DNA from: Chrysophaeum taylorii
Lineage: Eukaryota > Sar > Pelagophyceae > Pelagomonadales > Pelagomonadaceae
Direction: 5' to 3'
DNA: 35,121 nucleotides
NCBI GenBank assembly: GCA_029834535.1
Contig: JAQMWT010000414.1
Coordinates: 1-35,121, forward strand
Shown: positions 1 through 35,121 of the stretch, piece after piece
Layout of the letters: every line of letters begins with the position of its first letter
Position numbering within the stretch: the stretch's first letter is position 1
The notes under the pieces: model-generated
Seen by the model: the letters and a program-made list of their open reading frames with translations, nothing else
Databases searched by the model: none
Told to the model about the DNA's origin: nothing
Translations under genes and position numbers: made by a program

Positions 1-1500
1 CCTTCGAAGATTTGGAAGAGATAAAGCTCCGAGACTATCTTTGGAGGCAGTCGTTTCGGATGCTGGAAGGGGGGGAGGTCGTAATCTGGATGCGTAACAC
101 TCCGCTGGGAGTCTGCTATGCGTCGATGATGTGGTGTCCCACCTGCCTTTTGGCACTCTTGGACGTCCATTTGTTTTGCACGGCACTTCCCCCTAACGTC
201 ATCGTCGCAAAACCTCTCATACCTTTGATGGATCTGCCTCGTGGGCCCGCGATTTGGGGAGTAAAGTCCTTGATCTCGGTCTCCGGCGGCAAAAAAAAAA
301 AAAGCCGGCGTTTTAGTTGCTCACCCGATGAATGAGCGGATTTGCTCTTCGGGGTGAGGTTTCGGCAGAGTTCACAGGAATCGGCATCTTTCGTAGTGCC
401 TCCGACGTTGTGGGGTTAGGCTTTAATAAATCCGTCTCGGGGTCGAGATATGACCCCAGGACTCGGATTCTCGTATTGGAGCAAGTGGAATTTGGCTGTC
501 CGCCACTGTATCCTTTGGCGGCCAAGGGCCAAGAGAGGGAGGACTTCGATTAGGCACTGCAAATGATCGTGGACGTTGTCCGTTCCCATGATATCGTCGA
601 TGAAGCTGACCAGATCTCGGTACATCCATTTAGCGAGGTCGGCTGTCATCTACTTGAGAAGAGGGCGCCTGCGGTCTTCACTCCCAGGGGCAGTCGGAGA
701 AAGCTTTGGGCCCGAGCGGGCTGACTATTGTCACGGCGTCCTGTGCCTGCGGGTCCCGTCGAATGTTTGTACAAAGGTTTTGGACCCCCACCGAATGTCG
801 ATCGATGTCCGTTAACCTTCGGCCGGCCAGCTCAACGCTAGGCGTTCCTCCTGCGGTACATTCGGCCAGCTGTTGTCGACCAACTTGTTTCGTTGAGCTG
901 GCGTAAGTCGACAGCCGCGCGGGGAAGGCGTTTAGATGTCCGAGCTCTGCAATCCTTTCTTCGGGAGCATCAGGACCGGGAATCCCCAGGGGATTCGGCC
1001 GGTCTGATTCCGTCTCTGCACCATTCGGTCGCGATCTGCTGTCGGAGACATTCGATCTTTGGCTGAGTCAAGCGGTACGGCGACATCTTGATGGCTTTGG
1101 GTTGGGTCCGCGTCTTTGAATCGGTTCGAAGGGATACCGGCCGAGAGTCCCACGGGTCTCATGATGGGGTCGAAGAACGCCCAGGAATATCGAACGCAAT
1201 GTGCCACATAATTTTTGGCGTCTTCGTCCAGATGAGGGTTATTCGGGATGCCTAGCTCCTCGACGGCTTTGTCTACTTCTTCTTTCGTGGGGTTCTAAAC
1301 GACCATGGCCGCGTTCCCTTTCAGATGGTCGGGCTGTTGCGGTAGCGGTGCTCCGTCTTCGTCTCGGGGTGCGTTTTTCCATGGCACGTCAAACCATTCC
1401 TCGTACTTGAACCGGGCGAGCTCTTTGTTTTGGTTTTGTCGCTCGTCGGTTCCTTGGTTGGTTTCCCTCCCTTGGTTTGCCCTTCGAGGTTGCATCGTTT
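1..1500 (-). pseudogene. Reverse transcriptase and start of RNase H, element A, decayed
   Basis: Reading leftward, a segment near 1410-1295 contains FDVPWKNAPRDEDGAPLPQQ, the same pre-RT block as FDVPWKDAPRDADGAPLPQT in element B. At 1207-932 follow YSWAFFDPIMRPVG and GFPVLMLPKKG, the N-terminal fingers of a gypsy-type RT. At 649-416 is YRDLVSFIDDIMGTDNVHDH, holding the catalytic DD in a degenerate FIDD box (FADD in element B). Below about 250, scattered frames match the start of RNase H in B (block ending HPDYDLP). These pieces lie in different frames and a run of 13 A occurs near 290-302, so no functional enzyme can be made. The identification of RT is firm; exact domain edges are not. Confidence 0.8.
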
Positions 1501-1639: not shown

Positions 1640-2720
1640 TGCGCGAGTTGAAACGTTCACGAGGGCGCGTCGGGGCGCGGGTGCGATGGTTCCCACGCGC
1701 ACGGGGGTGGAGGGGCGCGCTCGATGATGTATGTTTCCGAGGGTCTGTCGGTGGGTACGACTACGTTCGGGCGCGCGATTCCAACGTTGCGGAGCGGGGC
1801 GGGAGGTGCGTTGTGTGCGTCAAGGGCGATGTATGCCATGGAAGACGGGGGTATCACGGCCGGTAGATGCTTCATTCGGTCCGTGACTGTGAGGTGGCCC
1901 CATGCGAGATCGCTCGGCATTGTGAGAGCCTCCGCGAGCATCTCTATTTTGAGTGCTTTGGTGTCCGATGGTGTGGGTCCTGTTCGCACTCCGTTCCGCG
2001 CGTGATGGTGTATATCGGTGCCGTGGCCTCTCGGATGCATCCAAAGTTTGTTGCGCTGGATGAGAGGCTGCGCAGGGTCGAGTCCGAGTTTGGCGGCGAA
2101 GGTATCTTGAATAGTGCCGCACGTTTTGGGACGCCGAATGAGCTCGAGAGGCCAGCTCGTAATGATCATGTGTCGACGGGTGCTCATGAGGTCCGGCGTC
2201 GTCGTCCACAGGTCGACGACGGTGATTGAACCCTTGCCTCAGCGTGATTCTCGAGCGAATGGAAGGTTTCCTGCTCGATGATCCAGCGTCCTACTCCGGG
2301 GAGCTGCAAGAGCTTGATGGTCCAATTGGTTGCGGGAGGACTCCTTTCCCAGCGTCGCGGGCGTAAGGTTGCACAGGGAGGAATCGACGCATGGTGTGTG
2401 CCAACGAAAAGGGCCGTGGGCCATAGGCTTTCATGCAAGTAACCCTTGACCAATGAAAGGACCCTGTCATACCGACCGCCGAGGGTGTGCTGGACGACAG
2501 GTATTCCTGGAAAGTTTATCTCATGGATGTCTTTGGCGGTGTCGGATGAGTCAATGACGAGCACGACCTTGTACGCGGTTCCGAACCATTCGTTGCTCCG
2601 ATATATACCCTGTGTGCCTCCTCCAATCCCGCCGAAGAACATTACTACGCGCGTCACGTTCTCCGGGATCCAGGAGAGCGCCCGGTGCTTGTCGATGATC
2701 GCTTTTTCCGCGGTTCGAGG
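1640..2720 (-). pseudogene. C5-cytosine DNA methyltransferase domain of retrotransposon A Pol, frameshifted
   Basis: The frame entering from the protease/linker reads VVMFFGGIGGGTQGI near 2648 (motif I, SAM-binding FxGxG loop), then VVLVIDSSDTAKDIHEINFP (motif II acidic strand) and GIPVVQHTLGG. The catalytic PC motif appears only after a frame change near 2375-2400, as HTPCVDSSLCNL; B has ASPPCVHSALCNL. Back in the first frame comes GRWIIEQETF (motif VI, Glu of ENV). After another shift near 2225 comes TPDLMSTRRHMIITSWPLEL (motif VIII-like), and VIPPSSMAYIAL near 1840 resembles motif X. In this family the enzyme transfers methyl from S-adenosylmethionine to cytosine C5. Two or more frameshifts and a separated catalytic Cys mean this copy is inactive. 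The alternative, an unrelated SAM enzyme, is unlikely given the ordered motifs. Confidence 0.75.
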
Positions 2721-8654: not shown

Positions 8655-8656
8655 GG
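8571..8656. repeat. Two tandem 43-nt units at the LTR edge of element A
   Basis: Positions 8571-8613 and 8614-8656 are nearly identical (aactaaggggtaaggatggc through ccgccacagg), differing at one visible base (ttgccgcc versus ttaccgcc). They contain the LTR-edge motif TGTGGCGG twice on the minus strand, so one LTR end appears to have been duplicated. Confidence 0.85.
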
Positions 8657-8675
8657 ACAAACAAACAAACGTGTG

Positions 8676-9056: not shown

Positions 9057-9067
9057 GTGCGCGGGAC

Positions 9068-10433: not shown

Positions 10434-10435
10434 GT

Positions 10436-10532
10436 TTGTCTTTAAATGTCGACTGCTAAGAGGGGGGTGTGTGTGGGGAGCATGAAGGATGTGGGTGGGT
10501 TTGTGGGGTATGAGGGATGTGCCTGACGGGCG
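10436..10532 (+). repeat. Fourth copy of G-rich repeat R
   Basis: It repeats the 8860-9056 unit (ttaaatgtcgactgctaaga, G-run, through gtgcctgacgggc) between the nuclease-like retroelement ORF and the first Helitron helicase fragment. It explains the spurious N-terminus of the neighbouring minus-strand open frame. Confidence 0.85.
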
Positions 10533-10559
10533 CAACGTTTGTCCCTCGATTTAGGGTAA

Positions 10560-11165: not shown

Positions 11166-11178
11166 ACACGCGCACTGT

Positions 11179-11492
11179 GGGTGAACTTACTGGGAGAAGG
11201 TGAACTTACTGGGGTTTGAGATTGGGACTAGGTGAACTTAGTGACCAGGTGAACTTACTGAGACCAAGTGAACTTACTGGGGGTTTTAGAGTGAACGCAA
11301 AGGCTAGCGACGTGTACGGATCAAAGCAGCTTAGATTGGCGGAGGTGAGAGCGACGAGCTCGAAGGAGAGTGGGGTGAGTGGGTGTGAGCACGAGTGGGT
11401 TTACGCCGAACTTACTGGGGTTAGAGATTGGGACTAGGTGAACTTGCTGACCAGGTGAACGTAACGGGACCAGGTGAACTTACTGGGGTTAG
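11179..11492 (+). repeat. GTGAACTTACTGGG minisatellite, block 1
   Basis: Imperfect units of about 17-19 nt, consensus GGTGAACTTACTGGGACCA, are mixed with longer units carrying GGTTTGAGATTGGGACTA. They occur at 11179-11290 and 11408-11487. Between them is unique sequence (gctagcgacgtgtacggatc, aaagcagcttagattggcgg) that is also present in block 2. The frames through it are not coding. Confidence 0.9.
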
Positions 11493-11540
11493 CACAGGGG
11501 TATATATAGCCCCAGGCACTCGCACAAACCAGGACCGGCA
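11491..11540 (+). promoter_or_regulatory. TATA-type core promoter, copy 1
   Basis: TATATATAG at 11501-11509 is framed by GC-rich GGGG/CCCC and followed by a conserved stretch ending ggaccggcatt and ctaccctcaccttttggtta. The same block precedes the 996-codon ORF at 13288. Conservation of the box and about 60 bp downstream suggests a duplicated promoter plus transcript start. What it drives here is not apparent; a LINE tail follows. Confidence 0.4.
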
Positions 11541-11694
11541 TTGCTACCCTCACCTTTTGGTTATCCTAACTACTAATCGACAGATGTTTGTCTGTTTCCC
11601 TGCGAGCGCTAACCGTTGGTTGCGATGGAGGACGGCGCCTAACACGCTTGCTCCCTGCGGCGGCCCCGGCCGTCCCGGAGTGAGACGGTGCCTG

Positions 11695-12008
11695 CTCGCC
11701 TCCCGGGCTGGCCGGTTAGCACCCGGAAAGTCCGCGCTGGGATGGGGTTCGCTCGGTTGGGCAGAACGCGACGGACAGGTCGATTGTTCGTGGACCAACA
11801 CGTTTGCGGCCTGCGACGCTCTTGCACGACTTCGCACAAGACCGCGCGCAGTGGCGGTCCGTCATCAACGAGTCCTCGTCCTTCGCCTCTGCCCCAACTG
11901 CGTGATTTTCCTCTGTGATTCCGGATCGGCTCCTGCCTGTCCGGCCTGGCTCCCATGCTCGGGAGAGGTCTGAAGTCAGTTAGTTTGTTTGTTAGTTTGT
12001 TTGTTTGT
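11695..12008 (+). mobile_element. 5'-truncated LINE (copy 2)
   Basis: The plus strand contains LLHDFAQDRAQWRSVI ending TGA at 11903-11905, the same ORF tail as copy 1. The 3' UTR shares the CGGCCTGGCTCCCATGCTCG hairpin region with copies 1 and 3 and ends in a mixed TTAG/TTTG tail at 11980-12008. The left part (cgcctcccgggctggccggtt, 11699 onward) matches copy 3. The 5' limit is approximate. Confidence 0.65.
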
Positions 12009-12064
12009 TTGTCCCTCGATTTAGGGTAAGGATCAGGTAGGCGCGAGAGTAAAGGATCAGGTAG

Positions 12065-12665
12065 GCGCGAGAGCCAGACAGTGATCCTCCAAGCCGTCTA
12101 CGGCGACCTCGCAGACTATTTCCACGACCCGCGGCGGCTCTTTCAGCGCGCCATTCTCACGCCCCGTCGAAACGATGTTGTCGATGCTGACAACGCGCGC
12201 ATGACCGCGGCCTTTTTTTCCCGGAGACGAGGCGTCGGAGTTCTTTTCGGCTGACTAGGCTGGGTCGGAAGACGACGCCTCGCTCTTTACAGTAGAGTTT
12301 TCAACTCCCTGACAACCAACGGCATGCTGACTTTGATCGCGAGCTTAATGTCTTCGCAACCTCGACCCGTCGCACGGCCACTGCAACGGTACCAGATACA
12401 TGATCGATCGTGTCGTTGTCACCGAGGCTCCTCCAACCTGTATCGCTTAAGGCCCGCCTACGCCAAACGATCAACAAGAGCCAGGGCCAGACGCCCCGCG
12501 AGGTCGGCGTCCTCTTTCCCAAGCCCGTCTTCTGCCACGTCCAGCTCTACGTGGCTCTCTGTCGATCGGCATCCCCGAGGATATACTCATCTGGGTCGAC
12601 GACTCCACCCTACCCCACACGTGCTGCGCAATACCGATAAGCTCCCTCCCGGCGTCTACACGCGC
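12065..12665 (+). pseudogene. Helitron/Pif1-type helicase C-terminus, copy 2, frameshifted
   Basis: This is a direct duplicate of 10560-11165, with a small internal duplication upstream (gatcaggtaggcgcgagag repeated). It encodes YFHDPRRLFQRAILTPRRND, closer to the canonical RAILxPRN motif than copy 1, and INKSQGQTPREVGV with PVFCHVQLYVALCRS, also closer to consensus (INKSQGQT). One extra T in a T-run near 12211-12217 breaks the frame. The TAG after SAD (12256 region) is shared with copy 1, so it predates the duplication. Confidence 0.75.
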
Positions 12666-12669
12666 ACTA

Positions 12670-13002
12670 TAGGTGAACTTACTGGGACCACGTGAACTTA
12701 CTGGGGTTTGAGATTGGGACTAGGTGAACTGAGTGACCAGGTGAAACTGGGACCAGGTGAACATACTGGGGTTTTTAGAGTAAAGGGTTTTTATTATATA
12801 AATTTAGAGTAAACTCAAAGGCTGGCGGCGCGTGCGGATCAAAGCAGCTTAGATTGGCGGAGGCGAGAGCGACGAGCTCAAAGGAGTTGGTGTGAGCTAG
12901 GTGAACTTACTGACCAGGTGAACTTATATGAAACTTACTGGGACCAGGTGAACTTACTGGGGTTAGAGATTAGGACTAGGTGAACTTACTGGCCTGCACT
13001 TG
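12670..13002 (+). repeat. GTGAACTTACTGGG minisatellite, block 2
   Basis: The same units as block 1 follow the second helicase fragment (12670-12775 and 12897-13002), with the same intervening unique stretch (aaagcagcttagattggcgg at 12842). A further single unit occurs at 13372-13382. Together with the helicase and promoter this shows a duplication of about 1.0-1.3 kb (10532-11567 versus 12009-13364). Confidence 0.9.
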
Positions 13003-13287
13003 TGGGCCCTTAAAGCGCTCGAGGTGGTTCGCGCGTTCGAATCCGCCCCACCGCTGCGCCGCAAGGAGTGTGTGAGTGCCTTCGAAGCAGTTGCCGTCGC
13101 CAACTGCTGGAGCCCCATCGTCTAGCACACACACTAGACCCCCCTCATCTGGGCGCTTTCACTTACCAGGACCGGATGTTCATCTCCGACGCAGATGTTC
13201 ATCTGAAGCAGATGGCGTCGTCGTCTGCTTGGTCCCCACCGTCTCGCATGTCGCCCCAGATGTTCACGTTTCACTATGATGGGGAAG

Positions 13288-13362
13288 CACAGGGGTATAT
13301 ATAGCCCCGGGCACTCGCATACACCAGGACCGGCATTCCTACCCTCACCTTTTGGTTAGAGA
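13288..13362 (+). promoter_or_regulatory. TATA-type core promoter, copy 2, upstream of the 996-codon ORF
   Basis: TATATATAG at 13296-13304 lies in the same block as at 11491 and is about 112 bp upstream of the ATG at 13416. The spacing fits a TATA-driven transcript starting near 13325-13335 with a short leader. It is the best promoter candidate for the long ORF; the initiation site is inferred. Confidence 0.45.
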
Positions 13363-13390
13363 TTGGGACTAGGTGAACTTACAGGCCTGC

Positions 13391-13490
13391 ACTTCTTCTC
13401 TACTAACGCCATCATATGAAACAAATGGAAGCAACCGCTCCACCCCAACCAAATCAGCCACATCGACAAGTGAATGATTCCACTTCCTTG
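13391..13490 (+). repeat. Direct repeat shared with 17053-17161
   Basis: ttctctactaacgccatcat, atgaaacaaatggaagcaac and onward to tgattccacttccttgaa recur at 17053-17161 with a few substitutions and a 16-nt internal tandem duplication in the second copy. The first copy contains the start codon and first codons of the 996-codon ORF; the second has the same ATG but stops after about 25 codons. Confidence 0.85.
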
Positions 13491-16406
13491 AAGGTTATGG
13501 GCACCTGGGCTAGCCCTGGGGACCCTCACCGTGAAGTGGGAGGACGACCTGACACCTCGCTTTCAGGCCGATGTTCCCTATCCGGCAAAAGGTGTTCCGG
13601 AGTCAACCGGTCAAATCCTTACGCAAGTCCAGACGACATTCAGTCCCGCACGGCGGACCTCTTCGCGATCCGCGACGTCCTGGCCTCGTTCGGCGACGCC
13701 CATGAAGCCTCTTCTGCGGCCCGCCGTGCGAAGTGTGTTCTCAACGCCCAAGACGACCACGACGCATTTGTTGCGGCCAAAAAAGCGAAGCGCGCTCTCG
13801 ACGACCACGACGCTCTCTTAGCCTCGCGTGCGGCTGACTGTGCCAAGTGTGCTCTCCGTGACGCCAGTAGCGCTTCTGATGCGGCACTCCGCGCCAAACG
13901 AGCTCTTCTCCGTGCCGCTTGCCGCGACGTCCGCAGCGCCTCTGCTGCGACCGACCGTGCTCTTCGTGACGCCCGCAAAGCGTCAGTTGCGGCCAAACGG
14001 GCCAAACGAGCCATCGCCCGCGCCACTCGTCGCGACGCCCGTGACGCATCCGCTGCAGCCAAAGTGGCTGACTCCGTCAACGCCTCTGTCACGGCCGACC
14101 TCGCCCGCCGTGCCCCCGACGCTGCCTCTTCCGATGCTTCCGGCGCTCACGTCGCCGCCTCTCACCCGACCCGGACCCTCACACAAGAAGGCGCAATAGT
14201 TGAAGTCCACCACGCTGACGTTGATGCCACCCAAGCTCACCGCGATCTCGACGCTGTCGATGCCAAAGTTCCGGCCAACGACGCGCCCCGCGCCCTCCGT
14301 GATGCCCACGCCGACCCCGCTGCGGATCCTCGCGCCCCAGGCGAACTCGACGTTGCCTCGCGCCCTCCACTTGAAGATCCCCGAGCCCAACGTGTCACTG
14401 CTTCGCTTGAACGCTCTCAAAGCGACACCGCAATGCTCGCCACCTCGGTACGTTCGCGCACGCAACCCCGCGCCACCCGGCACCACCGTCACTCGCGCCC
14501 CGACAAAGCGCACGGACTCGACCCGACCGACCCCCGTGATCGGTTCGACAGGGAAGCAATACGTCTTTCTCCCGATCCTCCGAACCTCGCCACACGTACT
14601 CGGTCCGACGGGGAAGTCATACATCTCGTCCCAATCACCTTGACCCTCGACTCACGTACTCGGTCCGACGAAGAAGTCCCTCAGATCCTTTACCCGTGTC
14701 ATCGGTCAGACCAGGAAGTTCACAGCCTCAACCTCCACGCGAACATCGACCCGCGTACCCGACTCGCCAAGGAAGTTCAACGCCCTAACTGCCTCGAACT
14801 CCCCAAGCACATAGATCCGCGTACTCGACCCGACAAGGACATCGATACCCGCGACACGCGTGTCCGATCCGACTCGGAACCCACCACCCGTACATGCCCA
14901 GCACCGGCTCGTGCTTCGCCCGTTACGGACGCCCATCGTCTCCACGCGTATCAACCGTCACCCCGCACTAGGTTCACCGCGGACTATCCAAGTCTCGACC
15001 CATGCATTCGGTCCGACGGCCATGTCCACGGTCACGCCCCGTCCAAAGAGCCCGACAGCTGCGTCACCCCATACTTCGAGGCAGCCAACGCCCTCGAACT
15101 GGATACCGAGTCTGGCATATGCTTCACTCCGCGCAATCCAAACATCGATCCTAGTCATCGTCCAGACGATACCAAAATAAATGCGACCCTGCACACGTCA
15201 TCCCCTCTCCTCACTGAGGGACCGTATGCGAAACCCAGCATCACTGCACTGCTGCGCAATACGTTGATCCCGCAAGCCTCGCAACCTCCGCAGTCGCCTC
15301 TTCTTGCTGACTCGCGACCGTATGACTCGACCGGTCTTCTTCCTCCCGACGAAGCCGACGGTCCAGCTCTCGATGAACCATCTCATGGTGAAACCAACAC
15401 GCCGGAAATCGCCAGCCACCCTGACCGCGCTCGTTCAGCCCTTGCTCATCAGGTCTACACACCCGTGTGGCCCGACAACAGCATCGACTCTGCTGCCGCC
15501 ACCACGTGCGAGTCGCCCCTCTCTCCAGAGATTCGACTCGAGGGGGTGAAGCCTGCATCATCGTCGCACACAAGTAATTCACAAGACTCACTTCTCGCTA
15601 CGTGTACCGCCGATTCCTCCAATGATCGCGCAGACGTTGCCTACGCCAAAGCCGCGCCGCAGCCCCACGCGCATCCGCCTACTCCAAGCATGTCCGAGTT
15701 CTTGCCACTTGAAGGCACAACAGCTGACCTGTGCAACACCCGTGAGAAACAGCTCTTCAAGCTAGACCTCACCGCCAACGAGATCAGGATGTCAACACAA
15801 CCTTTGACACCTGTAGTCCCTGCATACACACAGGCGCAGCAAACAAACTTCATACGTGGACAACTGGAACCCACAGACTTTCACCAGCATGACCACTTGA
15901 CCTATGAGGACACTTGTCAGCGTACAACTACAGTCTCTGGCTCTACAGACGCTGAAGCCGTGATGAACGCCTTACTCACCCTGCACACAGATATGGTATC
16001 GCATGACATTCTCACCACCAAATTCACCTACAACGAGGTTGCAAGCGATTACACAGTCGAATTGAAACACGACTACCTTGCCCTTGTACACGACATGCAT
16101 ACAGCTCACCTTAAGAATCAGGTGCAATGCAAACCGCACACCAGGGGGTGTGAGATACACATGCTCTCTGCCTTGAACAATACGACGATCTCACGAAGCA
16201 CGTGCATCGCGTCAAACTTCAACTGCTGTTCGTACGCCTGTGAACATTTTAAGTCAGACGCTGAAGCATACAAGTTGCATTCCCGCGCTAAAGACTCTGG
16301 ACTACTTGCATCACTCCAAGACCATCTGCAAGTCCCAAGCAAGTTCATATGGACACTACCAACCCACCACTTCACAGTGGGCCTCCCAGGCCACTGCACT
16401 GGTTGA
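13416..16406 (+). CDS. Long repetitive ORF, 996 codons, function unknown
   Basis: This is the longest plus-strand frame in the repeat nest, ATG at 13416 to TGA at 16404-16406. Residues about 75-220 are Ala/Arg/Asp/Lys-rich with imperfect units around AAKRAKRA and RALRDA, predicted helical. Residues about 360-500 carry units of roughly 20-25 residues built on DPRTRSDxEV. Residues about 500-800 are Pro/Ser/Asp-rich. The last 200 are more ordinary and Cys/His-containing (CEIHMLSALNN, FNCCSYACEHF). I recognise no catalytic motif, signal peptide or membrane segment. An open frame of this length in high-GC DNA with depleted stops could partly be a composition effect, but the TATA block just upstream and lack of frameshifts favour a real gene. 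A Gag-like or structural protein of an unrecognised element is possible. Confidence 0.45.
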   Translation: MKQMEATAPPQPNQPHRQVNDSTSLKVMGTWASPGDPHREVGGRPDTSLSGRCSLSGKRCSGVNRSNPYASPDDIQSRTADLFAIRDVLASFGDAHEASSAARRAKCVLNAQDDHDAFVAAKKAKRALDDHDALLASRAADCAKCALRDASSASDAALRAKRALLRAACRDVRSASAATDRALRDARKASVAAKRAKRAIARATRRDARDASAAAKVADSVNASVTADLARRAPDAASSDASGAHVAASHPTRTLTQEGAIVEVHHADVDATQAHRDLDAVDAKVPANDAPRALRDAHADPAADPRAPGELDVASRPPLEDPRAQRVTASLERSQSDTAMLATSVRSRTQPRATRHHRHSRPDKAHGLDPTDPRDRFDREAIRLSPDPPNLATRTRSDGEVIHLVPITLTLDSRTRSDEEVPQILYPCHRSDQEVHSLNLHANIDPRTRLAKEVQRPNCLELPKHIDPRTRPDKDIDTRDTRVRSDSEPTTRTCPAPARASPVTDAHRLHAYQPSPRTRFTADYPSLDPCIRSDGHVHGHAPSKEPDSCVTPYFEAANALELDTESGICFTPRNPNIDPSHRPDDTKINATLHTSSPLLTEGPYAKPSITALLRNTLIPQASQPPQSPLLADSRPYDSTGLLPPDEADGPALDEPSHGETNTPEIASHPDRARSALAHQVYTPVWPDNSIDSAAATTCESPLSPEIRLEGVKPASSSHTSNSQDSLLATCTADSSNDRADVAYAKAAPQPHAHPPTPSMSEFLPLEGTTADLCNTREKQLFKLDLTANEIRMSTQPLTPVVPAYTQAQQTNFIRGQLEPTDFHQHDHLTYEDTCQRTTTVSGSTDAEAVMNALLTLHTDMVSHDILTTKFTYNEVASDYTVELKHDYLALVHDMHTAHLKNQVQCKPHTRGCEIHMLSALNNTTISRSTCIASNFNCCSYACEHFKSDAEAYKLHSRAKDSGLLASLQDHLQVPSKFIWTLPTHHFTVGLPGHCTG

Positions 16407-16709
16407 TCTGGACAAACCTGCACCCACAATCATTTTTTTTTTACTACCTTTATGGCACGTCAACAACAACAAGATCACCTGACGTTACCGTGTCTCCTGC
16501 TTAGTAGTCAAGGAAATCAACGTGAACCGCGCCCACAGCTCAGTTCACATGCATCGCTGTCTTGTGGAACGATTCCACCGCCCCTCACATTACGTCCCCC
16601 ATCGTCCGTCTCGACTGAGTTGTGACACGTACGTACGAACGACGACCTTCATGCTTACCCCGAGCATCGAAGTATCGTTCGAGGGGGTGTTCAGTGATAT
16701 CAAGCTCGA
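16407..16709 (+). other. Non-coding tail downstream of the 996-codon ORF
   Basis: No gene is seen. A T-run (16434-16442) follows the stop. A purine tract cgagggggtgttcagtgata near 16679-16698 resembles a polypurine tract before an LTR start (TGTTCA), but no matching second LTR is visible, so this remains a hint. Confidence 0.25.
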
Positions 16710-17011
16710 GGGCATCCGCCCTCCCGGCGTAGGTTGGCACCTATTCGCCTCCCGGGCGGGCCGGTTGGCAGCCGGAACGTTCGCAGTGGGACGGGGTATG
16801 GCCGGGGGGCGAAGACGGAAGGTTATCGACGAGTTGGTTGTCAGTCACATCGCGGTCTCCTCGTCGCATGGCGACAAGCTTGATGGTCACTCTCCGCCGA
16901 CCGACCTTTCGGCGCTCCTCGTCTACAGGCCCGTGATTCCGGACTGGCACCTGTCGGTCCGGCCTGGCTCCCATGCTCGGGAGAGGTCTGAAGTTAGTTA
17001 GTTAGTTAGTT
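16710..17011 (+). mobile_element. 5'-truncated LINE (copy 3) with 8-bp target-site duplication
   Basis: It shares cgcctcccgggcgggccggtt (16749) and the 3' UTR cggcctggctcccatgctcg plus TTAGTTAGTTAGTTAG tail (16993-17011) with copy 2. It is flanked by AAGCTCGA at 16702-16709 and again at 17012-17019, a clean 8-bp target duplication. The AQDR..WR coding block of copies 1 and 2 is not present in the middle, so it is an internally different or deleted copy. Confidence 0.7.
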
Positions 17012-17052
17012 AAGCTCGACCCTCACCCTTTACCCTCCCTACTCCCCTCTTA

Positions 17053-17161
17053 TTCTCTACTAACGCTATCATATGAAACAAATGGAAGCAGCCGCTCCAC
17101 CCCAACCAGATCAGCCAACCAGATCAGCCACATCAACAAGTGGATGATTCCACTTCCTTGA
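17053..17161 (+). repeat. Second copy of the 13391 direct repeat
   Basis: It matches 13391-13490 and includes the same ATGAAACAAATGGAAGCA start, with a 16-nt duplication (accagatcagccaaccagat region). The frame is closed early by TGA at about 17142-17144. Confidence 0.8.
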
Positions 17162-25323: not shown

Positions 25324-26175
25324 TTCGCCATGCGGGCCAGCGGCTAGACCAGCCTCGCGCCGGAAAGGCGCGTTGGCCGTACCGCCCAGTCCGGCGGGGG
25401 TGGCGGAGGGATGCGGGCCAGCGGAGGCACGGACCATCTGCGGTAGTTGTGGATGCGCACTTTGCGTGGGGTGCGCCACCTATCCCGGCGGGAACACGTT
25501 GGTAAACGGGTGGTGCAACATAGGATGCATCATGGGCCCTTGCGGCGTCCCACCTTGCGTCCACGCCGTCCACGCCGGGTGCATACCGGAATACATTGGC
25601 CCCCAGGGGAACGCCGTGGACGTTGAGCCGGCGGCACTCGATGACGTTGTAGGCTAAGGTGTCGGCGTGTGCGGGTGCGCCAGCGTCCCAAGCGGCGGCG
25701 GCTGCGACGGCCACATCGAATGCATCGGCGCCGGGTGCAGCAGCGCCTGCGGCTGGTACTGCGACGCCGGGACCTGCGGCCAGTGCCCCGGCGTAGGCTG
25801 AATATGCCACAGGTGCGCCTGTTGCATGTTCACCGTCTGTGGCTGCGGCTGCGGCACTGGTGGCTGCGATGCCGGGGCCATGGCCGCAGGCCCCGGCAGC
25901 TGCGACAGCATCGACACCGATGCGGCTGCGGCAGCTGCTGCGACGCCGGGGCCATGGCCGCAGGCCCCGGAAGCGGCGTCGGCACCGGCTGCACGTTCAC
26001 CGGCTGCGGCTGCGGCTGCGGCACCGGCGGCTGCGACGCCGGGGCCATGGCCGCAGGCCCCGGCAGCTGCGACAGCATCGGCTGCATCGACACCGGGTGC
26101 GGCTGCGGCAGCTGCTGCGACGCCGGGGCCATGGCCGCAGGCCCCGGAAGCGGCGTCGGCACCGGCTGCCCCTGA
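25324..26175 (-). pseudogene. Pro/Gln/Met-rich low-complexity coding segment, two in-frame TAGs
   Basis: On the minus strand the frame gives AMAPASQPPVPQPQPQTVNM, then HPAPMHSMWPSQPPPLG, and after TAG (25654-25656) AFPWGPMYSGMHPAWTAWTQ, MMHPMLHHPFTNVFPPG, a second TAG, then AHPTQSAHPQLPQMV and the exon at 25206. The bias to P, Q, M and H continues across both stops, so it was one coding region, perhaps the disordered N-terminus of the downstream exon's protein. The 5' part is made of the minisatellite at 25845-26165. Confidence 0.35.
25845..26165. repeat. GC-rich minisatellite built on gccggggccatggccgcagg
   Basis: Four copies of gccggggccatggccgcaggccccgg start near 25871, 25945, 26038 and 26122, separated by variable gctgcggctgcggc-type spacers, giving a period of about 74-93 nt. 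The core is nearly palindromic around ccatgg. On the minus strand it encodes PGPAAMAPASQ. Confidence 0.85.
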
Positions 26176-26272
26176 TAAAGGGGGGGGGGCTAACGGAGGG
26201 GTAAGCCTTAGGAAGCGGGAGTTTCCGCCACAGGACTCCCCTGGTGAGAATGCGAGCTGCCCCGGCGAGTGG

Positions 26273-28909
26273 CTAGCGCGAGGAGCGCGGCTTCGCCTTA
26301 CGAGCGTCTCGTAAACGAATCTTCTTGTAAACGCGGGTGATGATCGGCTCGGGAACTCGACCACCGCGTAGAGTAAACTTGGGGACCAACACATCAATCT
26401 CGTGCGGAGCGAAATCCGTGACACAAGGAGTTGTGCTGGATGAGATCCTGGACTTGTCGGTGAAACTGCGACCGTCAGCGTCCTTGTACTCAGGCTTGAG
26501 CTTGCGGTTCGAAAGGTGAGAGGTCGGCTTGAAATAAGCGACATTATCGTTCGGACTCAAATCGGAATAGAAATGTAGACCAACACGATTATTCTGGTAA
26601 TCGCAAGGCTCGTGAACTTCAGCAACATAGATCTTCTTGCGCCAATCAGAGCGCTTCCGGTCAGGAATCCGGAAAACAACAAACTTACCGTGCTGATAGT
26701 CATCACGGAATGTCTCTTCGGGTTTGCGGATGGCTTGATCAACGATCGGAGGAACCATCACAGGCGCGATCTGACTAACATGAACACGCCGTTCTTCGGG
26801 CGGAGAGTCGAGATACTCAATCCTATAGGTGACCAGGGAAAGGCGTTCCTTGATAATAAACGGTCCTCGCCATTCCGGTCGAAGCTTGTTCTGAAGGAAA
26901 GGAATGTAGAGCAAAACATGCGATCCTTCCTTGTATTCAACATCAACATGATCAGCATTGTAAGCCAATCGCTGTTTCTTCAAAGCTTTATCACGAGTCT
27001 CGCGGACGATCCTTGTATAATATTTCAATCGTTCGCGAGTCTCGGCGACTGCATCAGAGCGAGTCTTCGGCAATAATCGTGTATCAAAATCCATGAGCGT
27101 ATAGTCAGTCGGCAGCATCGGCTGACGGTTCAGGCGCAGCATAAAGGGGGAAATCTGCGTGCCTGGAATAAACTTGCGGTTGTAGCAAAACGCAATATAA
27201 TGAGCAAAGTCAGGCCAATCCGTGATGTTCCGGCCTTGAAGGCAAGCACGTAGGAAGGCCTTGATAAATCGGTTGACACGCTCAGCCGGGTTCGACTGGG
27301 CATGATAGGGAATCGTAGTTTGGTATCGTGTGTTGAAGAGATGGCAAAACTCGCGCATCAACTTTTTCACGAACTCTTTACCGTTGTCGGTACGAATCAT
27401 CTGGGGCAAGTAGCCCTTGAGGAGCATGTTAATGACAAAAGACTCGAGGACAGACTCAGCAGTCTTATCGTTCAAAACATCCAGAATCAAGAAGTGCGAG
27501 AACGGATAAAAAAATATTAGAAGATACGTCTCGGGACCAGCGCTGGGCAAGGGTCCAAATAAATCCATGCAAAGAACAGCACCATCACCATCGTAGACGG
27601 GCTGCTGCAAGAGTCCAGCTCGTTTCGGCTCAGGCGTACGAGCTTTCTGGCAAACTAAGCATTCAGCAATGAAGACTCCAACTTCGTTCGACATGTGAGG
27701 CCACCAAAATCGTTCTTGGATAGCCTGGACGGTACTGTGACGTCCCATATGACCACCGTTAACCGGAGTGTCATGATAGAGTCGAATAATGCGTTTGCGC
27801 AACGTAGCAGGTGCAACAATCATCGGGTGCGAATCAGCAGAAATGCGGCAAATAATGTCTTTCACAACTTCACATCGGTCGTTCGCTTGGTAATGTCGCG
27901 ACGTATGACCTTGGGCCATCCGATAGCGAATATCCTCGCAAGTAGCATCAGCTTCTTGCTCACGCGCGATCTCATCGAGCGTCATATTATCGGGAATTTT
28001 ATCAATGTAGTCCTTGTACGCGGCTGCGTCCTCGAAGACCTGCGGCTCATCGCGCACGCGGTGCTTCCGACGTTGTCTCGTAGCGTGAGACGTAGCCAAT
28101 CTCATCGGATCTTTTTTATGAGACTCTTCCTCGTCTTCCGGCGGTTCGGTCGTGACAAACGACAATATGAAGTGACAGCCGGAGGCAGGAATTCCTTGGT
28201 CATCAATAGGTCGGGGAAGCTCTTGGAACACCAAATAAGCGTGGTTCAAAGGTTCTCCAAACTCGTCAGTCTCGATGACATGATCTATCGGATTGCGGGA
28301 GAGACAGTCAGGGATACTCATTCCCGGTGACTTTCCCGGCTTGTAACCAAGATCAGGGTCAAAGTTGGCGAGGCGCATCGCCCAACGAGCAAGCTGTCCA
28401 GACGAGTGCGTCGCCTTACGTAAAAACGTCAAATTTCGGTGATCGGGCTCCAAAACAGTCCGGTGCCCTTCGATATAGGCTCGAAAGTGCTCTAGAGAAA
28501 GGATAAAAGCCAGCAGCCCCAGCCGACGGGGCTCATAATTGCGCATCTCCTTCGGCACGGCTCGGCTCCAGTATTCAATCACTCGTTCTTCTCGAGTCAC
28601 TCTTTCTGCCTTGTCCTCGACTTCGACAATCTGGACGAGATATGCTCCAAGTCCATCTTTGGAAGCGTCGGATCGGATGTGGAAAGGCAGATCACAATCG
28701 GGGTGGTAGACTCCTCTGGAATCAACCAAAGCTTCAATAATCGTATCCCGAGCCTTTAGACACTCGGGCGTCCACTCGAACTTTACGCCTTCGAGACGTA
28801 ATCGTCTCAGCGGCTCCACAATCTTCGAGTAGCCTTTCACATATCGCCGGCAGTAACTACTCATGCCGATGAAAAAGCGTATCTGGGTCTTCGGAGAACT
28901 ATTCGGCAA
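26273..28909 (-). CDS. pol: RNase H-integrase part of element B Pol, intact
   Basis: This open frame of 878 codons has no internal ATG requirement, since it is part of Pol. Residues 1-70 are the RT thumb/connection (TQIRFFIGMSSYCRRYVKGY). RNase H follows with catalytic D81 in IRSDASKDGLGAYL, and YEPRRLGLLAFILSLEHFRA (E126) and PDHRNL (D156). The integrase zinc finger is H379, H387, C417 and C420 (CLVCQKAR). The integrase core has D449 (LCMDLFGPLP), D508 (IRTDNGKEFV) and E543 (NPAERVNRFIK). A GPF/SH3-like module (LRPEWRGPFIIKER) comes near residue 690. About 150 further residues include GKFVVFRIPDRKRSDW and KIYVAEV, GLHFYSD, a beta-rich piece that may bind chromatin or DNA. The enzyme degrades RNA in the hybrid and inserts cDNA. 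All catalytic residues are present. Confidence 0.9.
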   Translation of the reverse strand: MPNSSPKTQIRFFIGMSSYCRRYVKGYSKIVEPLRRLRLEGVKFEWTPECLKARDTIIEALVDSRGVYHPDCDLPFHIRSDASKDGLGAYLVQIVEVEDKAERVTREERVIEYWSRAVPKEMRNYEPRRLGLLAFILSLEHFRAYIEGHRTVLEPDHRNLTFLRKATHSSGQLARWAMRLANFDPDLGYKPGKSPGMSIPDCLSRNPIDHVIETDEFGEPLNHAYLVFQELPRPIDDQGIPASGCHFILSFVTTEPPEDEEESHKKDPMRLATSHATRQRRKHRVRDEPQVFEDAAAYKDYIDKIPDNMTLDEIAREQEADATCEDIRYRMAQGHTSRHYQANDRCEVVKDIICRISADSHPMIVAPATLRKRIIRLYHDTPVNGGHMGRHSTVQAIQERFWWPHMSNEVGVFIAECLVCQKARTPEPKRAGLLQQPVYDGDGAVLCMDLFGPLPSAGPETYLLIFFYPFSHFLILDVLNDKTAESVLESFVINMLLKGYLPQMIRTDNGKEFVKKLMREFCHLFNTRYQTTIPYHAQSNPAERVNRFIKAFLRACLQGRNITDWPDFAHYIAFCYNRKFIPGTQISPFMLRLNRQPMLPTDYTLMDFDTRLLPKTRSDAVAETRERLKYYTRIVRETRDKALKKQRLAYNADHVDVEYKEGSHVLLYIPFLQNKLRPEWRGPFIIKERLSLVTYRIEYLDSPPEERRVHVSQIAPVMVPPIVDQAIRKPEETFRDDYQHGKFVVFRIPDRKRSDWRKKIYVAEVHEPCDYQNNRVGLHFYSDLSPNDNVAYFKPTSHLSNRKLKPEYKDADGRSFTDKSRISSSTTPCVTDFAPHEIDVLVPKFTLRGGRVPEPIITRVYKKIRLRDARKAKPRSSR

Positions 28910-30015
28910 AGTACCTGGAAAATCGGCATCTTCTGCTGTGCTTCCAGCGTCTTCGGAATCGGCTTTAAGCCTTCAGGGGTCGAAATGTGTCCCGTAAATT
29001 CTATCTCATCCTTGAGAAGGTGGAACTTTGCGGTTCGACCGCTGTACCCTGTCTGTGCCAAATGACACCTAACTTCGATCAAAACTTGCAAATGTCGATG
29101 AAGATCGTCGGATCCCATCATAATATCGTCAGCAAACGCAACCAAGTCTCGATACATCCATTTCGAAAGGTCGCTCGCCATTTGCTTGCTGAATAGAGCT
29201 CCGGCCGTCTTCACAAGAAACTACGAGCTCCAAGTGGGCTAACCATCGTGACAGCGTCTTGCGCTGCCGGATCCAGACGAAGGTTGTGGTATCCCCATCT
29301 AATATCAATGCATGTCCGCCAGCGTCGCATGGCGAGAAAAGCTAAAGCATCGTCTTGTCGAATGTTCGGCCAACTGTCATTGACCAATTGATCGTTGAGC
29401 TGACGTAAGTCAACTGCAGCACGGAGCGCGCTGGCGTTCCAATCTCGGCTCCTTGCTTGGGAAGCATCAACACAGGAAAGCCCGAAGGTGAGTTGGCCGG
29501 GCGAATGACTCCATCACGACACCACTCAGTGGTCTGCTTGCGGAGACAATCGAGCTTCGCAGGCGTCAATCGGTAGGGCGCCATCTTAATCGGTCGCGGA
29601 TTCGCGTCTTTGAATCGCAGAGACACAGGTGGCGAGTCCACAGGTCTCATAATCGGGTCGAAAAATGCCCACGAGTATTGCACACAATGACGGAACATCA
29701 ATTTTGCATCATTGTCTAAGTGCGGATTGTCAGGAATTCCAAGCTCTTGAACAATCTTGTCAACTTCGTCCTTCGTAGGAATTTTCACTTTCATCGCATC
29801 GTTATCCTTGAAATGCGCGGGAGTTTGCGGCAGCGGTGCACCATCAGCATCGCGCGGCGCATCTTTCCACGGCACATCGAACTTTTTCTCGTATTTTAAT
29901 CTCACTTCCGGGTGGCTTTTGTTGATCTTCTCGCCTTTGACACGAACGCTCGGCTCGCTCTTAATCTTCGGTTCCCGATCTTGCTCCGGATCTGGCGGAA
30001 CGTCCAAATTTGGTT
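28861..30015 (-). pseudogene. Reverse transcriptase of element B, frameshifted
   Basis: The N-terminal part (30007-29342) is open and shows FDVPWKDAPRDADGAPLPQT, then YSWAFFDPIMRPVD, KMAPYRLTPAKLDCLRKQTT and GFPVLMLPK, the gypsy RT fingers. Frames change several times between about 29440 and 29215. The palm reappears in 29214-28861 with YRDLVAFADDIMMGSDDLHR, the catalytic FADD box, and IEFTGHISTPEGLKPIP. A last 1-nt shift near 28915-28930 separates it from the RNase H frame. It copies element RNA into cDNA when intact. The entry frame differs from that of the methyltransferase; the two meet at an 11-C tract (30019-30029). Confidence 0.85.
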
Positions 30016-30029
30016 GTCGGGGGGGGGGG

Positions 30030-31210
30030 CAGCAGAAGAAGCATGAGACGTCCCCGGCTCATCTGTTGCAGGCGGAAGCAAAGGCACTTCGGGCGAATTC
30101 CATTTGCTGCGATCCTGGAGATCATCAGTCGACACCCATCTTACGACACGCGTGCGCGTGTTTAACAGCGGAACTTGTGCGTGACGAAGGGTGGTTTCTT
30201 CGATTTGCAAATAATGGTCGAACGGTCGGTCTGCAGGGCTCAACGCGGACGGCAAAGCCTCGCCCCTCAAGTGAAAATCCTTAGTCACAGAGCTGTGCAG
30301 GTCGAGTACTAATAAAGCCATCGTTTCTGGTGGCACGACGGACGCCAGGTGTTTCAACGAGGTCTTCCTGGAGAAGCCGGCCCAATCAAAATCAAGGGTC
30401 ATCGTAAGCAACTCCGCAGTCATTTTCACATTCCGAGATCGGTAATCGGAACGGTGCGGTCCTACTCGAAGCGGGACACGCGTAACGGTTTAAGCTGCGT
30501 CCGTCGCGGCTCGTGATGATCCTAAATTGTTCATTTGAAGTAAATGTCGCTCGTCTGCGTAGCCAAGCGCAGCGGCGAATTCCCGTTGCCTATTCTTGCT
30601 AGTCTTGGGAGCTGCGCGCAAATGGGGCGGGTGGCTGGAGACCAACAACCGCACGCGACAGCTCATCAAGTTGGGCGTTATGTCGTAAAAATTGACGACG
30701 TACACGTAAGGGTGTAAACGCGCAACATAAGAAATAATCGAGGCCTCCTGCTCTATCAACCACATGAAGAAACCAGCCATCTTGCATAATTTCATCGTCC
30801 GGTGGTGGCGGTGACTCACTTGCCAACATCGCTGGAAGTCAAGTTGCACAGAGCGGAGTGTACGCAGGGTGGCGACGCGATGCACATCGACGACGACCAT
30901 TCCGTGTAAGGTAAATAAGTTTCGATCAACCGTAAGGTTGTAACATAGCGACCACAAAGCGTGTGCTGCACCACAGGAATGTTCTGTAAATTCTCGCGAT
31001 GGATCTTGTTGGCGGTGTCCGACGAGTCGAATGCTAACACGGCTCGAAACGACGTCCCACACAGTTCGTTGGCTCGTTGGAGGCCTAAAGTGCTGCGTCC
31101 GGCTCCACTGAACAGCATCACCACCTTGCGATAAGTGATCGGAAGCCAACGAACCTTTTGGCGGCGGATCTCCGCTTCGGTGATCTCGCGGCACTTTTCT
31201 CATCTTCTTC
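30030..31210 (-). pseudogene. C5-cytosine DNA methyltransferase domain within element B Pol
   Basis: On the minus strand, motif I VVMLFSGAGRSTLGLQRAN starts at 31127, followed by RAVLAFDSSDTANKIHREN (motif II) and NIPVVQHTLCG. Motif IV, ASPPCVHSALCNLTS, carries the catalytic Pro-Cys pair in frame. After a frame change near 30820 come FFMWLIEQEAS (motif VI Glu), VVNFYDITPNLMSCRVRLLV with SSHPPHLRAAPKT (motif VIII, RxR) and FAAALGYADERHLLQMNNLG. A TAA at 30490-30492 precedes ASVVPPETMALLVLDLH (motif X-like PP box, about 30340) in the same frame. The span of about 300 codons equals a compact C5-methyltransferase. It would methylate cytosine in DNA using SAM. It has no separate start or promoter and lies in the Pol path between linker and RT. 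The target recognition region cannot be identified. Element A carries the same domain at the same place. Confidence 0.82.
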
Positions 31211-33125
31211 CGACCGTCGAGCGAAATCGTCGTCTCGTCTGGGTCGTTTGGGGGAGGACGCGTCCAAAGCAGCAGCTGGAGCATCCTTCTGCGCCGTGCT
31301 CAACAACATCGGCGGGGGAGATTCGTCGCAGTGCGTCAAGTGACTAGCGACGGAAACAGTGAAGGAAAGGTCCCCCTTGTCGTACCCTTCTTCACATTAT
31401 TTCGTAAGCTCGTTGATCGTAGGAACGCTCAACTCATCTTCGTACCGAACGATATCGCCGATTGCGAGAACCTCGCCTCGAGTGACGACCGTCGGCACTT
31501 CTTGCGTGGAAGTAACAGCCACGCGGGCAGATGACTTGTCGTGCTCTTCGCAAGAAGAACACATTCCTTCGACAATGCTCAGCTCCTCGGATTCAGCGAA
31601 CGTGGCGACGAAGACCTGTCCTTTTTCCATAGGCTTCGACAAAATAACCGGTACGTTGTAAGTTCGACCGGGCTCGATTTGTAGCGTGCGCGCAGCGTAA
31701 GCAACAACTCCCTGCGGGGCTTCTCCCGGTGCTGGGGGGAGTTTGGTCGTAGAATGTCCCCGAGTCGTCAAGGCTACCGCTCGTTCCGGCGGCGGGCTGC
31801 GGAGATCTGTGATCGTGCACAGACGAGCATACACTCGAGTCTTGACCAGGTCGAGACTCCGTCGAATGGCGTCGTGCTGGTGATTGTAAATCGGCACTGT
31901 TACCGGATTTCGATCGTAAACAGATCGAAAGGTCACAATGGGTGCATCGACTCGTTCACCCCTGACTCTGATCTTCTTGCGTCCGTAGACGACTTGGGTT
32001 CGGTAAAAACAAATTCGGTCGTGGAGGTAGTCCACCACGGCTCCTAAAACTCGGATGTCGCGCCCTCCCAACAGGAAAAGATAGCTGGCGTCGGCTACAA
32101 TAGCGACAATGGGGGCAGCGATGTCGTCGGCGAGAGCAACTCGGATCGCGATCCAACGATAGATCGTCGTCGTATTCAACCCCGCCCGATCCGTACAGCT
32201 TGCGCTTAATCGGAAGCTCGCCTTCATCGAAAATTAAACATCTTTGGCCAGCTTTCTGACCATTTCACGGCAAATATAGGAAACATCTGCCATTCCATCA
32301 ACACCGATGGTCGTCGAGAATTTCGGTCCGTCACGATTCCTGTAGATGTGACAGGCCATAAACGTCAGAGTACCCGTATCCAAACAACTGAGGGTAACCA
32401 AATCTTCTTCGATAGTCTTGCCATCTCGCGGCGTTAACGAAGTGTGAGAACATTGGGCTCTGACTCTGACTCGCTCGTCGTTGGGCATCGACACCGCGGC
32501 TTGAGCTCTCGTATCATTTGTCGTCGTCGTCATCGACGCAGCGCTCGCGGCAGCCTCTTTATCTGGTGGCTTCCGCTCTTCCTCCATGACAATCTCGGAG
32601 GGAATCAATGCTGGTAGGGGATCCCGATCTTCGGCGTTCTCTGAAGCAAAAGACCTCTCCCATAAATCGTTCATTTCGTCTTTCCAGAATGCATCCGTAG
32701 ATTCATTCGTCATCTGTTGATCGTCACATTCGGTGCCGATCGGTTCCGCGTCGGCTGCGGCTTCGATACCGTAGCTGAGCGATCGATTATTCTTTAGTTC
32801 TGGTGGCTTCTTTAGCAAGAAGTTCCGAGTTCTCGTCCACCAATTCTGCAGGTTCCACGTCGGCTCTGCTTCGTCCAAATCGAGAACGCTGCTAATCTTC
32901 TTCTTAAATCCATCTTCTTCGGTTGGGTTCGGCTCAACTCCGGCAACGCCGTCACGGCTCTTCTCTCTTGGCGGTGACAAATCCGGGCATTGCTTAATTG
33001 GAGAAGCGTCCCTTTCGTCTTCGGACCGTGCACGTAGCCTCTCGTCCGACGCATTATGCGTTTTCGTATCCTTTTCTTCCGGCGGCGTATCCGTGGCTCG
33101 ATCCGTCGTAACCGAAACCGTTTCG
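31211..33125 (-). pseudogene. Acidic spacer, retropepsin and linker of element B Pol, two in-frame TAAs
   Basis: The coding frame leaves the C-tract at 33125-33132 and runs through an Asp/Glu-rich spacer, LQNWWTRTRNFLLKKPPELK, then LDTGTLTFMACHIYRN and GVDGMADVSYICREMV, the retropepsin active-site region. After TAA (32234-32236) the frame continues with LFLLGGRDIRVLGAVVDY, the second protease signature. The linker EPGRTYNVPVILSKPMEKGQ to TRGEVLAIGDIV follows; after a second TAA (31397-31399) comes a basic/acidic spacer leading, with one frame change near 31200, into the methyltransferase. Protease would cut the Gag and Pol precursors. Homologous with element A over its length, which shows the stops are lesions. 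Confidence 0.75.
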
Positions 33126-35121
33126 GGGGGGGTCCGCAGGAAAAGATGGCGTCGTCCCCGACGTCAACTCTATCGTAAGATCGTCGTCTGCATCACTCGC
33201 AATGGTCATCGTCTCATCTGTCGAATGATCATCCGTGCTATCGCTGCAGAAATCCATGTCTGGCTCACTGCCAGTCCGGTCGCCAAAGGTCATCTCGGGG
33301 GGATCCAAAGATAAGCCGATAGCGTCGAGGGCTTCCTCGTCAAAAACAAACGGTGGGTCGTCCTTGGACGACTCGTCAAGTAACGTAATCGAGGACACTG
33401 GTTCACAAGGTACGGCTTCTTCGTCTTCCGAGTCCGAATCGCCTTCCCAGTATCGTGGAGCTTCGAGTTCATCGCTCGACTCTTCGAGTTCATCGCTCGA
33501 CATCTCTTCATGAATCTGTGCCAAAGACCGACGATCGGTCAGCACAACGTTGGGTGGCTCGTCCGGCTGCGGACGAGCAAGATCTTCGAGTGCGGCCGCG
33601 GCAAAAGCGTCGGCTGCGTTGTCGGAGCGGGTGTCCGTGTTCGGGTACATCATCACTCCTAATGGTAACTGTTGACCGCAAGGGGTCGTAAACGCGAACG
33701 TGGCTGACGAATGATCGCGGTCGCGTGATCTTCGTCGGCGGCGTCGGCGCGAATGTCTGCTAGGGCTCCGGCTGTCTTTCCGTCGGCGCGAACGTGAGCT
33801 GTGACTACGGCTCCTGTCGCGGCGTCGGGGACTGCGGCTGCCTCGTCGGCTCGATCGTGTAGAGGACGATCGGCCATGTCCATCTTTCAAGTGCTTCACT
33901 GAGTCCATTACTGTGGTCAGCTGCGTGCCCATGTCGTTGAGCCTGCTCTGAATGTCTTGAGCAGCGCTCGAACCGAGAGTGGCATTCGAACTGCCATCAT
34001 CGCGCGACGGGGTGCCCTTCTTCTGTCGACTCTCCCATCTGCCTCGAGAGGGAGGTTTCTTATCATTTTCGATGAACTTGCACATCGCAACATAGTAATC
34101 ATCTGGTTCGCAGTTGCAAATAACTCGGCTTCCGTGCTCGTCTTTGTCGTGGGTCGAGAGGAAAAACCCACAACTCTTGCAAGTTAGCTCGTACCACTTC
34201 TTCGTGTTGTCTTCCACTCGTAGCGGTTCATATTTCGGTTTCTTGTCTTTCTGACCTGAGGCCAACGCTCGGCCTCCGCGTCCCTGCGGCGGTCGCTGCG
34301 TTTTCGGGTTCGACGGGTTCTTCGCGTTGCGGTCATTCCGCTCTTCCAGCGCGGTCTCGTGGTCGATCTCGAGACGCGTAATCAATGTCAACGTCGACGT
34401 AAATGTCTTATCCGTCGTCGGGTGCCCGCTGCGCATGGTCCGCACGCGGGATCGTAAATCGCTGGACTCCAGTCCACGTATCAAATAAGAAATGATCTCA
34501 ACACCCTTGATGTCTCGATTCGCCGAAGAGCAGAAGGCCATCGCCTCGCTCTGAAACTTGGCGCAATATGTGTGCACGTGTCGTTCCCCAGATCTTTTCG
34601 GAACAGTCGGCTGGGTCGTACTCTGAAGTTTCCGTCGTGACTCCTCTGTCGTCACAGGCAGAGGGCAAGTCGATCGAGAATACTATAAGATTCGGAGACA
34701 GTACTCCTTGTTCAGCCGTCGTAGCCGTCGTACCACTGTCCCGTACTACTCGTCATCAACGTCCCGACGTAAATAAAAGGACGCTGGGCGGTCGAGGTTC
34801 TTGCACTCTTCCTTGTACTTCGCAAGATGTTCACGGAAGATCGGTGGTACCGTGTCGCGTAAACTGACCGGTAATAATTATATTAGCTTCTCAATGCTGC
34901 AATGGTCTTCTGATAGCGTGCTCATCACGGCGTCCGCATCTAAATCGAATTGGTCCTGGTCACGACCGTCAAGGACCAATTTAAGCGTCTCGGTCTTCAA
35001 TCCGGAGGGTGGCCGCCGATCCTTATTGCGATCGTGCTTGGCCAATGCGCTGGCGAATCGATCGGTGAAGTCCATGAGGAACTTCTTGTTGTTATCCTCC
35101 CCATCGTCGCGCGTCTCCTCC
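33054..35121 (-). pseudogene. gag: Gag of element B, interrupted and cut by window edge
   Basis: Frame from beyond 35121 to 33054 is continuous except for TAA at 34878-34880, TAG at 34746-34748 and TAG at 34683-34685. The capsid start LKLVLDGRDQDQFDLDAD matches LKLEMIKLDIEGKDQRQFDH of element A. After the stops an open frame of 533 codons carries a Cys cluster (CKSCGFFLSTHDKDEHGSRV then CNC), an Arg/Ser-rich tract (SRSRRRKDSRSPSRHSRRRR) likely to bind RNA, and an acidic end with a duplicated SSDELE unit. The Arg/Ser tract is not seen in element A. The last part (33125-33054) is probably read in the Pol frame instead. Confidence 0.75.

Follow-up and report, generated by a model that had tools for sequence, protein, structure and literature searches.

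Does a retrotransposon in the genome of Chrysophaeum taylorii carry its own cytosine methyltransferase, and what would the element use it for? The question is raised by the window, i.e. the whole stretch of 35,121 nucleotides that was analysed, in which motifs resembling those of C5 cytosine methyltransferases lie within the Pol region of an element called here element B. This element extends over 26164..35121 on the minus strand, as delimited by BLASTN against the loci L061-L063, and continues past the window on its 5' side. Read from its upstream side, it begins with an open frame of 542 codons including an SR-rich stretch (33057..34682, minus), a putative Gag by its position, which aligns with L063 and partly with L061 and whose Pfam match is sub-threshold. 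In the region upstream of the methyltransferase domain (32239..33163, minus), two possible protease sites were read by eye on the minus strand, CLDTGT (DTG) at 32386-32369 and GVDGMADV (VDGMA) at 32305-32282; no Pfam match to an aspartic protease was obtained in the window copy nor in L061 or L062.

The C5-methyltransferase-like domain itself is present as a frame-broken copy at 30319..31193 (minus), recognized by its motifs and by homology to copies fetched from the genome. It is followed by a reverse transcriptase (RT) region in broken frames (28864..29513, minus) that corresponds by homology to the RVT_1 stretch in L061 and L062 and carries the RT box DLRQLND at 29411, and then by an open frame of 899 codons (26276..28972, minus) with Pfam matches to RT_RNaseH, Integrase_H2C2 and rve. 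The order RT, RNase H, then integrase was also found in L061 and L062. In addition, direct repeats flank the element in one copy, L062 (1-206 and 9526-9739, at least 206 and at least 214 bp, 92% identical). From the Pol domain order and these repeats, rather than from an RT tree, element B is classed as a Ty3/gypsy-like LTR retrotransposon. A primer-like site read from that one copy, TGGTGGAGGATATGAGATTCGA at L062 202-223, spans the end of the left repeat and could pair with the 3' end of a tRNA. At its 3' end, element B is accompanied by a tandem repeat of about 167 bp (window positions 25823-26169).

The window's own genome (70.8 Mb, 697 contigs) was searched with a 126-residue fragment of the window copy, and at least 150 matches were found, one of them in the window itself, with 150 of the 706 candidates being scored. 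A stop was counted inside the match in 5 of the 150 matches listed, and open frames around the matches reach 3067 codons. This longest frame, in L061 on contig C5, encodes matches to PF00145 (18.9 bits), RVT_1, RNase H, H2C2 and rve, in that order, while part of the linker between the methyltransferase domain and RT is missing from L062. Considered with the repeats of L062, the L061 frame shows that the methyltransferase-like stretch belongs to Pol in LTR elements and is not peculiar to the window; in answer to the proposed search for intact copies, open copies of the domain were found. Among the matches listed, at least 18 of 68 chosen RT matches had a methyltransferase match 1.63-1.95 kb upstream, and the other 50 had no partner among those listed, which leaves them at most candidates for members lacking the domain. 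Elsewhere in the genome, contig C696 contains eight listed RVT_1 matches between 10962 and 56289, with open frames of 565-716 codons, and these might represent group II intron proteins from an organelle genome.

The domain of the window copy begins at 31193 on the minus strand and its motif pieces are spread over three frames. They comprise LFSGAG (31115-31098), SPPCVH (30875-30858, with PPC at 30875-30864), WLIEQ (30762-30748), CRVRLL (30660-30643) and LASVVPPETM (30348-30319), all on the minus strand, which we take to be motif I, motif IV, a candidate for motif VI, a motif VIII-like box and a motif X-like box, respectively. Motif VI reads IEQ and not ENV, in 29 of the 29 fetched loci, and its Glu lies 38 residues after the Cys of motif IV, the same spacing as that of the Glu in the reference set. 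The Gln after PC is absent. The sequence-only reading had placed C5-methyltransferase-like motifs, in element order, upstream of RT in a gypsy-like Pol, which the window positions, the L061 frame and the profile comparisons given below bear out. Its list of motifs stands for I and IV, calls for a correction at VI, which reads IEQ, and is weakly supported behind motif IV.

Kinship to known enzymes was first of all sought in profile libraries. The window fragment (31199-30821) scored 13.7 bits against PF00145, below the cut-off of 22, and matched a PHROG DNA methyltransferase profile at E 0.001. L061 (18.9 bits) and L062 (19.7 bits) were also below the Pfam cut-off, which is exceeded by copies of the domain on C456 (23.3), C238 (22.7) and C434 (22.5); the PF00145 search suggested earlier is positive at the curated cut-off for these three copies and not for the window copy, L061 or L062. 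The best E values for PHROG DNA methyltransferase were 1.7e-6 (L061) and 1e-6 (L053), and those for NCBIfam dcm were 0.0016 (L061) and 0.0013 (L053). These PHROG, NCBIfam and Pfam matches of the copies span motif I and the next 30-50 residues. A phage search with L053 yielded six records with E values no higher than 10, the lowest being 0.4, and two of the six are annotated as DNA methyltransferase. Among viral contigs, 127 pattern matches were obtained and none was confirmed, the patterns lying outside the motifs.

Profiles were then compared with each other. The reference alignment A3 had six rows, five phage proteins and L001 from the same genome as the window, and gave a probability of 96.4 and a score of 72.9, aligned from motif I to PPC, with at most 21.7 in 100 column shuffles. 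Two of its rows, L066 and L067, are annotated as hypothetical proteins and are themselves marginal matches to the element B domain. With both left out, the four independent references, namely L001 and the phage proteins found with it, still reached a probability of 93.5 and a score of 56.8 (46.4 with the element B rows alone), and 100 column shuffles did not exceed 19.9. A sequence-to-profile comparison scored 51.8 versus at most 17.0 in 60 shuffles. In its global mode, hhalign assigned probabilities of up to 99.6 to shuffled columns, and the scores from that mode were set aside for this reason. Sequence comparison thus identifies the element B domain as a real, strongly diverged relative of C5 methyltransferases, with firm kinship for motifs I-IV. 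That the resemblance is due to chance and the stretch is an unrelated Pol spacer is scarcely credible, even though the window fragment, L061 and L062 stay under the Pfam cut-off, a protein collection gave 0 of 7108 candidates at E 0.001 for the L063 region and alignment A2, with 8000 candidates scored, found a single match (a PF00145 protein, E 4.9), since the same family is named by three libraries (Pfam, NCBIfam and PHROG), several copies exceed the Pfam cut-off and the profile score with independently chosen references lies above all 100 shuffles, controls that rule out chance for motifs I-IV.

The part after motif IV behaves differently. With six references its profile score was 23.9 versus at most 19.2 in 100 shuffles, a comparison that includes the two rows picked by likeness to element B, and with the four independent references it was 16.4 versus up to 22.5 in shuffles. 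In the sequence-to-profile comparison, 2 of 60 shuffles were as good. In pairwise comparisons, the element B sequence scored above all 500 shuffles with P0001 and above 497 of 500 with each of L070 and L066, and did not stand out from shuffles with the other four of the seven references (L071, L069, L067 and L001). As P0001 is the top profile match, it provides an independent test through its second half only. The corresponding fragment of the related element A, described below, stands out with none of the seven references (best L069, 28 of 500 shuffles as good), and elements A and B are clearly homologous to each other in this part (score 245). Methyltransferase kinship is hence weakly supported here. 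An AlphaFold model built from 14 near-identical or partial rows had a pLDDT of 36.8, and the 50 Foldseek rows listed for it, none of them a methyltransferase by description, were given no weight.

Copies of element B keep the domain under purifying selection. Twenty-nine loci (L032-L060, the window excluded) were selected because their protein matches to the window were the strongest, and FSGAG, SPPCVH and WLIEQ were present in all 29, in any frame. Sixteen of them are open and of equal length over a stretch of 294 residues that begins with the domain and ends at motif X. In these 16 copies pooled dS was 0.078 and dN 0.0099, giving a dN/dS of 0.126, a value that the choice of copies by protein match to the window lowers somewhat on the side of dN. 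The least-changing stretches are those containing motifs II-IV, with a dN of 0.001 for residues 49-98 and 0.002 for residues 98-147, versus 0.008 for the motif I stretch and 0.025 for the last one. In L061-L063, dN/dS was 0.13 for the methyltransferase domain; in one pair each, RT gave 0.16 (8 changes) and the linker before RT gave 0.07 (10 changes), and no ratio was obtained from RNase H and integrase.

A related second element, element A, is located at the left edge of the window (320-8400, minus). Its RT is present in broken pieces, one of which (861..1201, minus) is 71-74% identical in DNA to the element B copies, and upstream of this piece lies a diverged, frame-broken homologue of the domain (1660..2708, minus) that shares 48% and 37% of its residues with element B in two aligned pieces. 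Its boxes, all on the minus strand, read FFGGIGG (2639-2619), TPCVDSS (2397-2377) and WIIEQ (2285-2271), followed in the later part by MSTRR (2187-2173) and AVIPPS (1860-1843). The long upstream frames of element A (568 and 845 codons) matched no Pfam family at E 0.01. The presence of the homologue upstream of RT in both elements is most simply read as presence in their common ancestor, and capture of the domain probably predates the separation of the two elements.

Between the two elements, the window contains an open frame of 999 codons on the plus strand (13407-16406) that matched no Pfam family at E 0.01 and lies where the GC skew is negative. Direct and inverted repeats are densely packed at 8570-13500 and 16700-17160, for example 10558-11292 and 12052-12781, which are 93% identical. 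Positions 16707-17009 match an internal part of L063 (8524-8826) at 98% identity.

The PF00145 search of the genome also brought up other repeated methyltransferase-like frames, family C (L003-L030, on contigs C4, C120, C64, C326 and others). These have the boxes LPCQHLS and VENV and reach 46 bits against PF00145. By pattern, the stretch is open in 16 of 28 loci, and 15 copies of equal length gave a dN/dS of 0.17. No retroelement domain was found in the tested frames of the 3.4-kb loci of family C, and its domain retrieved 0 of 1186 candidates in a protein search. Finally, L001 and L002 match PF00145 over most of the profile and look like host genes; from their motifs, L001 is presumably Dnmt2-like and L002 Dnmt5-like.

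Methyltransferases in retrotransposon Pol were published in 2018 by de Mendoza et al. (PMC5890265), among them that of the gypsy element KnitGypsy-Dnmt3 of Klebsormidium nitens, together with the Symbiodinium elements SymbioDIRS-Dnmt3 and SymbioLINE-Dnmt. Dnmt3 domains borne by DIRS elements carried out de novo CG methylation in yeast and methylation of cDNA was proposed (PMC5890265). DIRS elements with Dam-like adenine methyltransferases are described as well (PMC5890265, PMC6338049), and a later paper refers to the elements of streptophytes and dinoflagellates as Copia and DIRS (PMC12344493). The suggestion that placement and family might be new has accordingly to be given up as regards the kind, a gypsy Pol with a Dnmt3 domain being already known (PMC5890265). 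A name-based literature search, which cannot find an unnamed family, gave no report of element B; within the library searched, the names of the Klebsormidium and Symbiodinium elements occur in the 2018 paper alone.

As far as its published description goes, KnitGypsy-Dnmt3 resembles element B: it is a gypsy element of the LTR type, exists in several copies and has, within the frame of Pol, a C5-methyltransferase domain under purifying selection. It differs by its Dnmt3 domain, whereas element B had no special likeness to Dnmt3 in searches, a comparison made by description for KnitGypsy and not by a tree. In searches of solved structures with the family profile, no DNMT3 was found at E up to 10, and the matches listed were not significant. 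KnitGypsy-Dnmt3 also has DIRS-like repeats (Fig. 4 legend, PMC5890265), whereas L062, a single copy, has one direct pair in 9.9 kb. SymbioDIRS-Dnmt3 shares with element B a methyltransferase in Pol and SymbioLINE-Dnmt carries one in an ORF upstream of RT, but both belong to other retrotransposon orders, whereas element B has RNase H and an rve integrase after RT. The Dam-like DIRS elements likewise share a retroelement-borne methyltransferase, yet the enzyme is structurally unrelated and the element order is another one (PMC5890265). As far as tested, element B thus seems to differ from the published cases in the lineage of its domain and, judging from one copy, in how its repeats are arranged.

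What the domain may do is suggested by its place in Pol. In LTR elements, parts of Pol are packaged together with RT, so that a methyltransferase in Pol would meet the genomic RNA, the primer tRNA and the cDNA. The methyltransferase-derived domain of element B would be made as part of Gag-Pol, upstream of RT, would travel in the particle together with RT and would methylate cytosines of the nucleic acid there, first of all those of freshly synthesized cDNA, either prior to integration or as it takes place. We tentatively favour this joint reading, i.e. a gypsy-like Gag-Pol with a captured and selected C5-methyltransferase domain that is packaged and most likely methylates cDNA, and give it close to an even chance. 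Counted against it were the absence of a CpG footprint, the IEQ box, the lack of Gln after PC and the weak second half.

The first of these concerns the idea that the element marks its own DNA in a CG context, which has found no support so far. CpG observed/expected was 1.30-1.35 in L061-L063, 1.31 in the window copy of element B and 1.25 in element A, to be compared with 1.17 for the whole window, 1.07 for 9-26 kb, 1.26 for L001, 1.46 for L002 and 1.03-1.08 for family C loci; no CpG depletion was therefore found in element B (L061-L063 and the window copy). C/T differences per site between copies amounted to 0.073 at CpT, 0.054 at CpG, 0.045 at CpC and 0.040 at CpA, with no concentration at CpG, in a comparison of 29 copies where 268 of the 406 possible pairs were retained after filtering by length and identity, the pairs are not independent and codon position is not controlled. 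Both results argue against long-lasting heavy CG methylation. Young copies may have had too little time for CpG decay.

The other three observations raise the possibility that catalysis was lost and that the domain is kept as a SAM-binding, nucleic-acid-binding or structural part of Pol. This would account for an altered motif VI, for the missing Gln after PC and for a part behind motif IV that is hardly like known enzymes in a domain that is under selection all the same. Against this, 29 of 29 loci have both SPPC and a Glu with the spacing expected of such enzymes, and the stretches with motifs II-IV are the least changed ones (dN 0.001 and 0.002). We consider loss of catalysis unlikely, with a substantial residue of plausibility.

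The domain could also be a Dnmt2-type RNA cytosine methyltransferase acting on the RNA or the primer tRNA of the element and not on DNA. LTR elements use a tRNA primer, and the primer-like site of L062 as well as the absence of a CpG footprint would fit such an activity. Moreover, the only methyltransferases reached in solved structures at E up to 10 were two Dnmt2 / tRNA C38 enzymes (E 0.76-0.94), matched over motif I and the next strand and helix at a level that is not significant. E values near 1 are not decisive, though, and unrelated chains rank higher (GGA1 at 0.34 and a designed barrel at 0.65), which makes the Dnmt2 chains a lead and no more; the primer site comes from one copy. Motif VI of Dnmt2 is ENV, unlike the IEQ of element B, whose domain is furthermore embedded in Pol. 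A Dnmt2-type enzyme is on balance rather unlikely. A further variant, in which the domain has a Dnmt2-like or bacterial-like source, goes back to a capture separate from the published Dnmt3 cases and acts in the particle on RNA rather than by setting CG marks, appears improbable.

Methylation of cDNA in the particle by a captured domain remains the tentatively favoured reading of element B. The short list of retrotransposons with a cytosine methyltransferase is extended by one whose domain, in the searches made, is unlike the published Dnmt3 ones. With many open copies, selection in element B and a homologue in the diverged element A, the use that such an enzyme may have for a retrotransposon, whether as a mark on cDNA, on RNA or on the primer, becomes testable.
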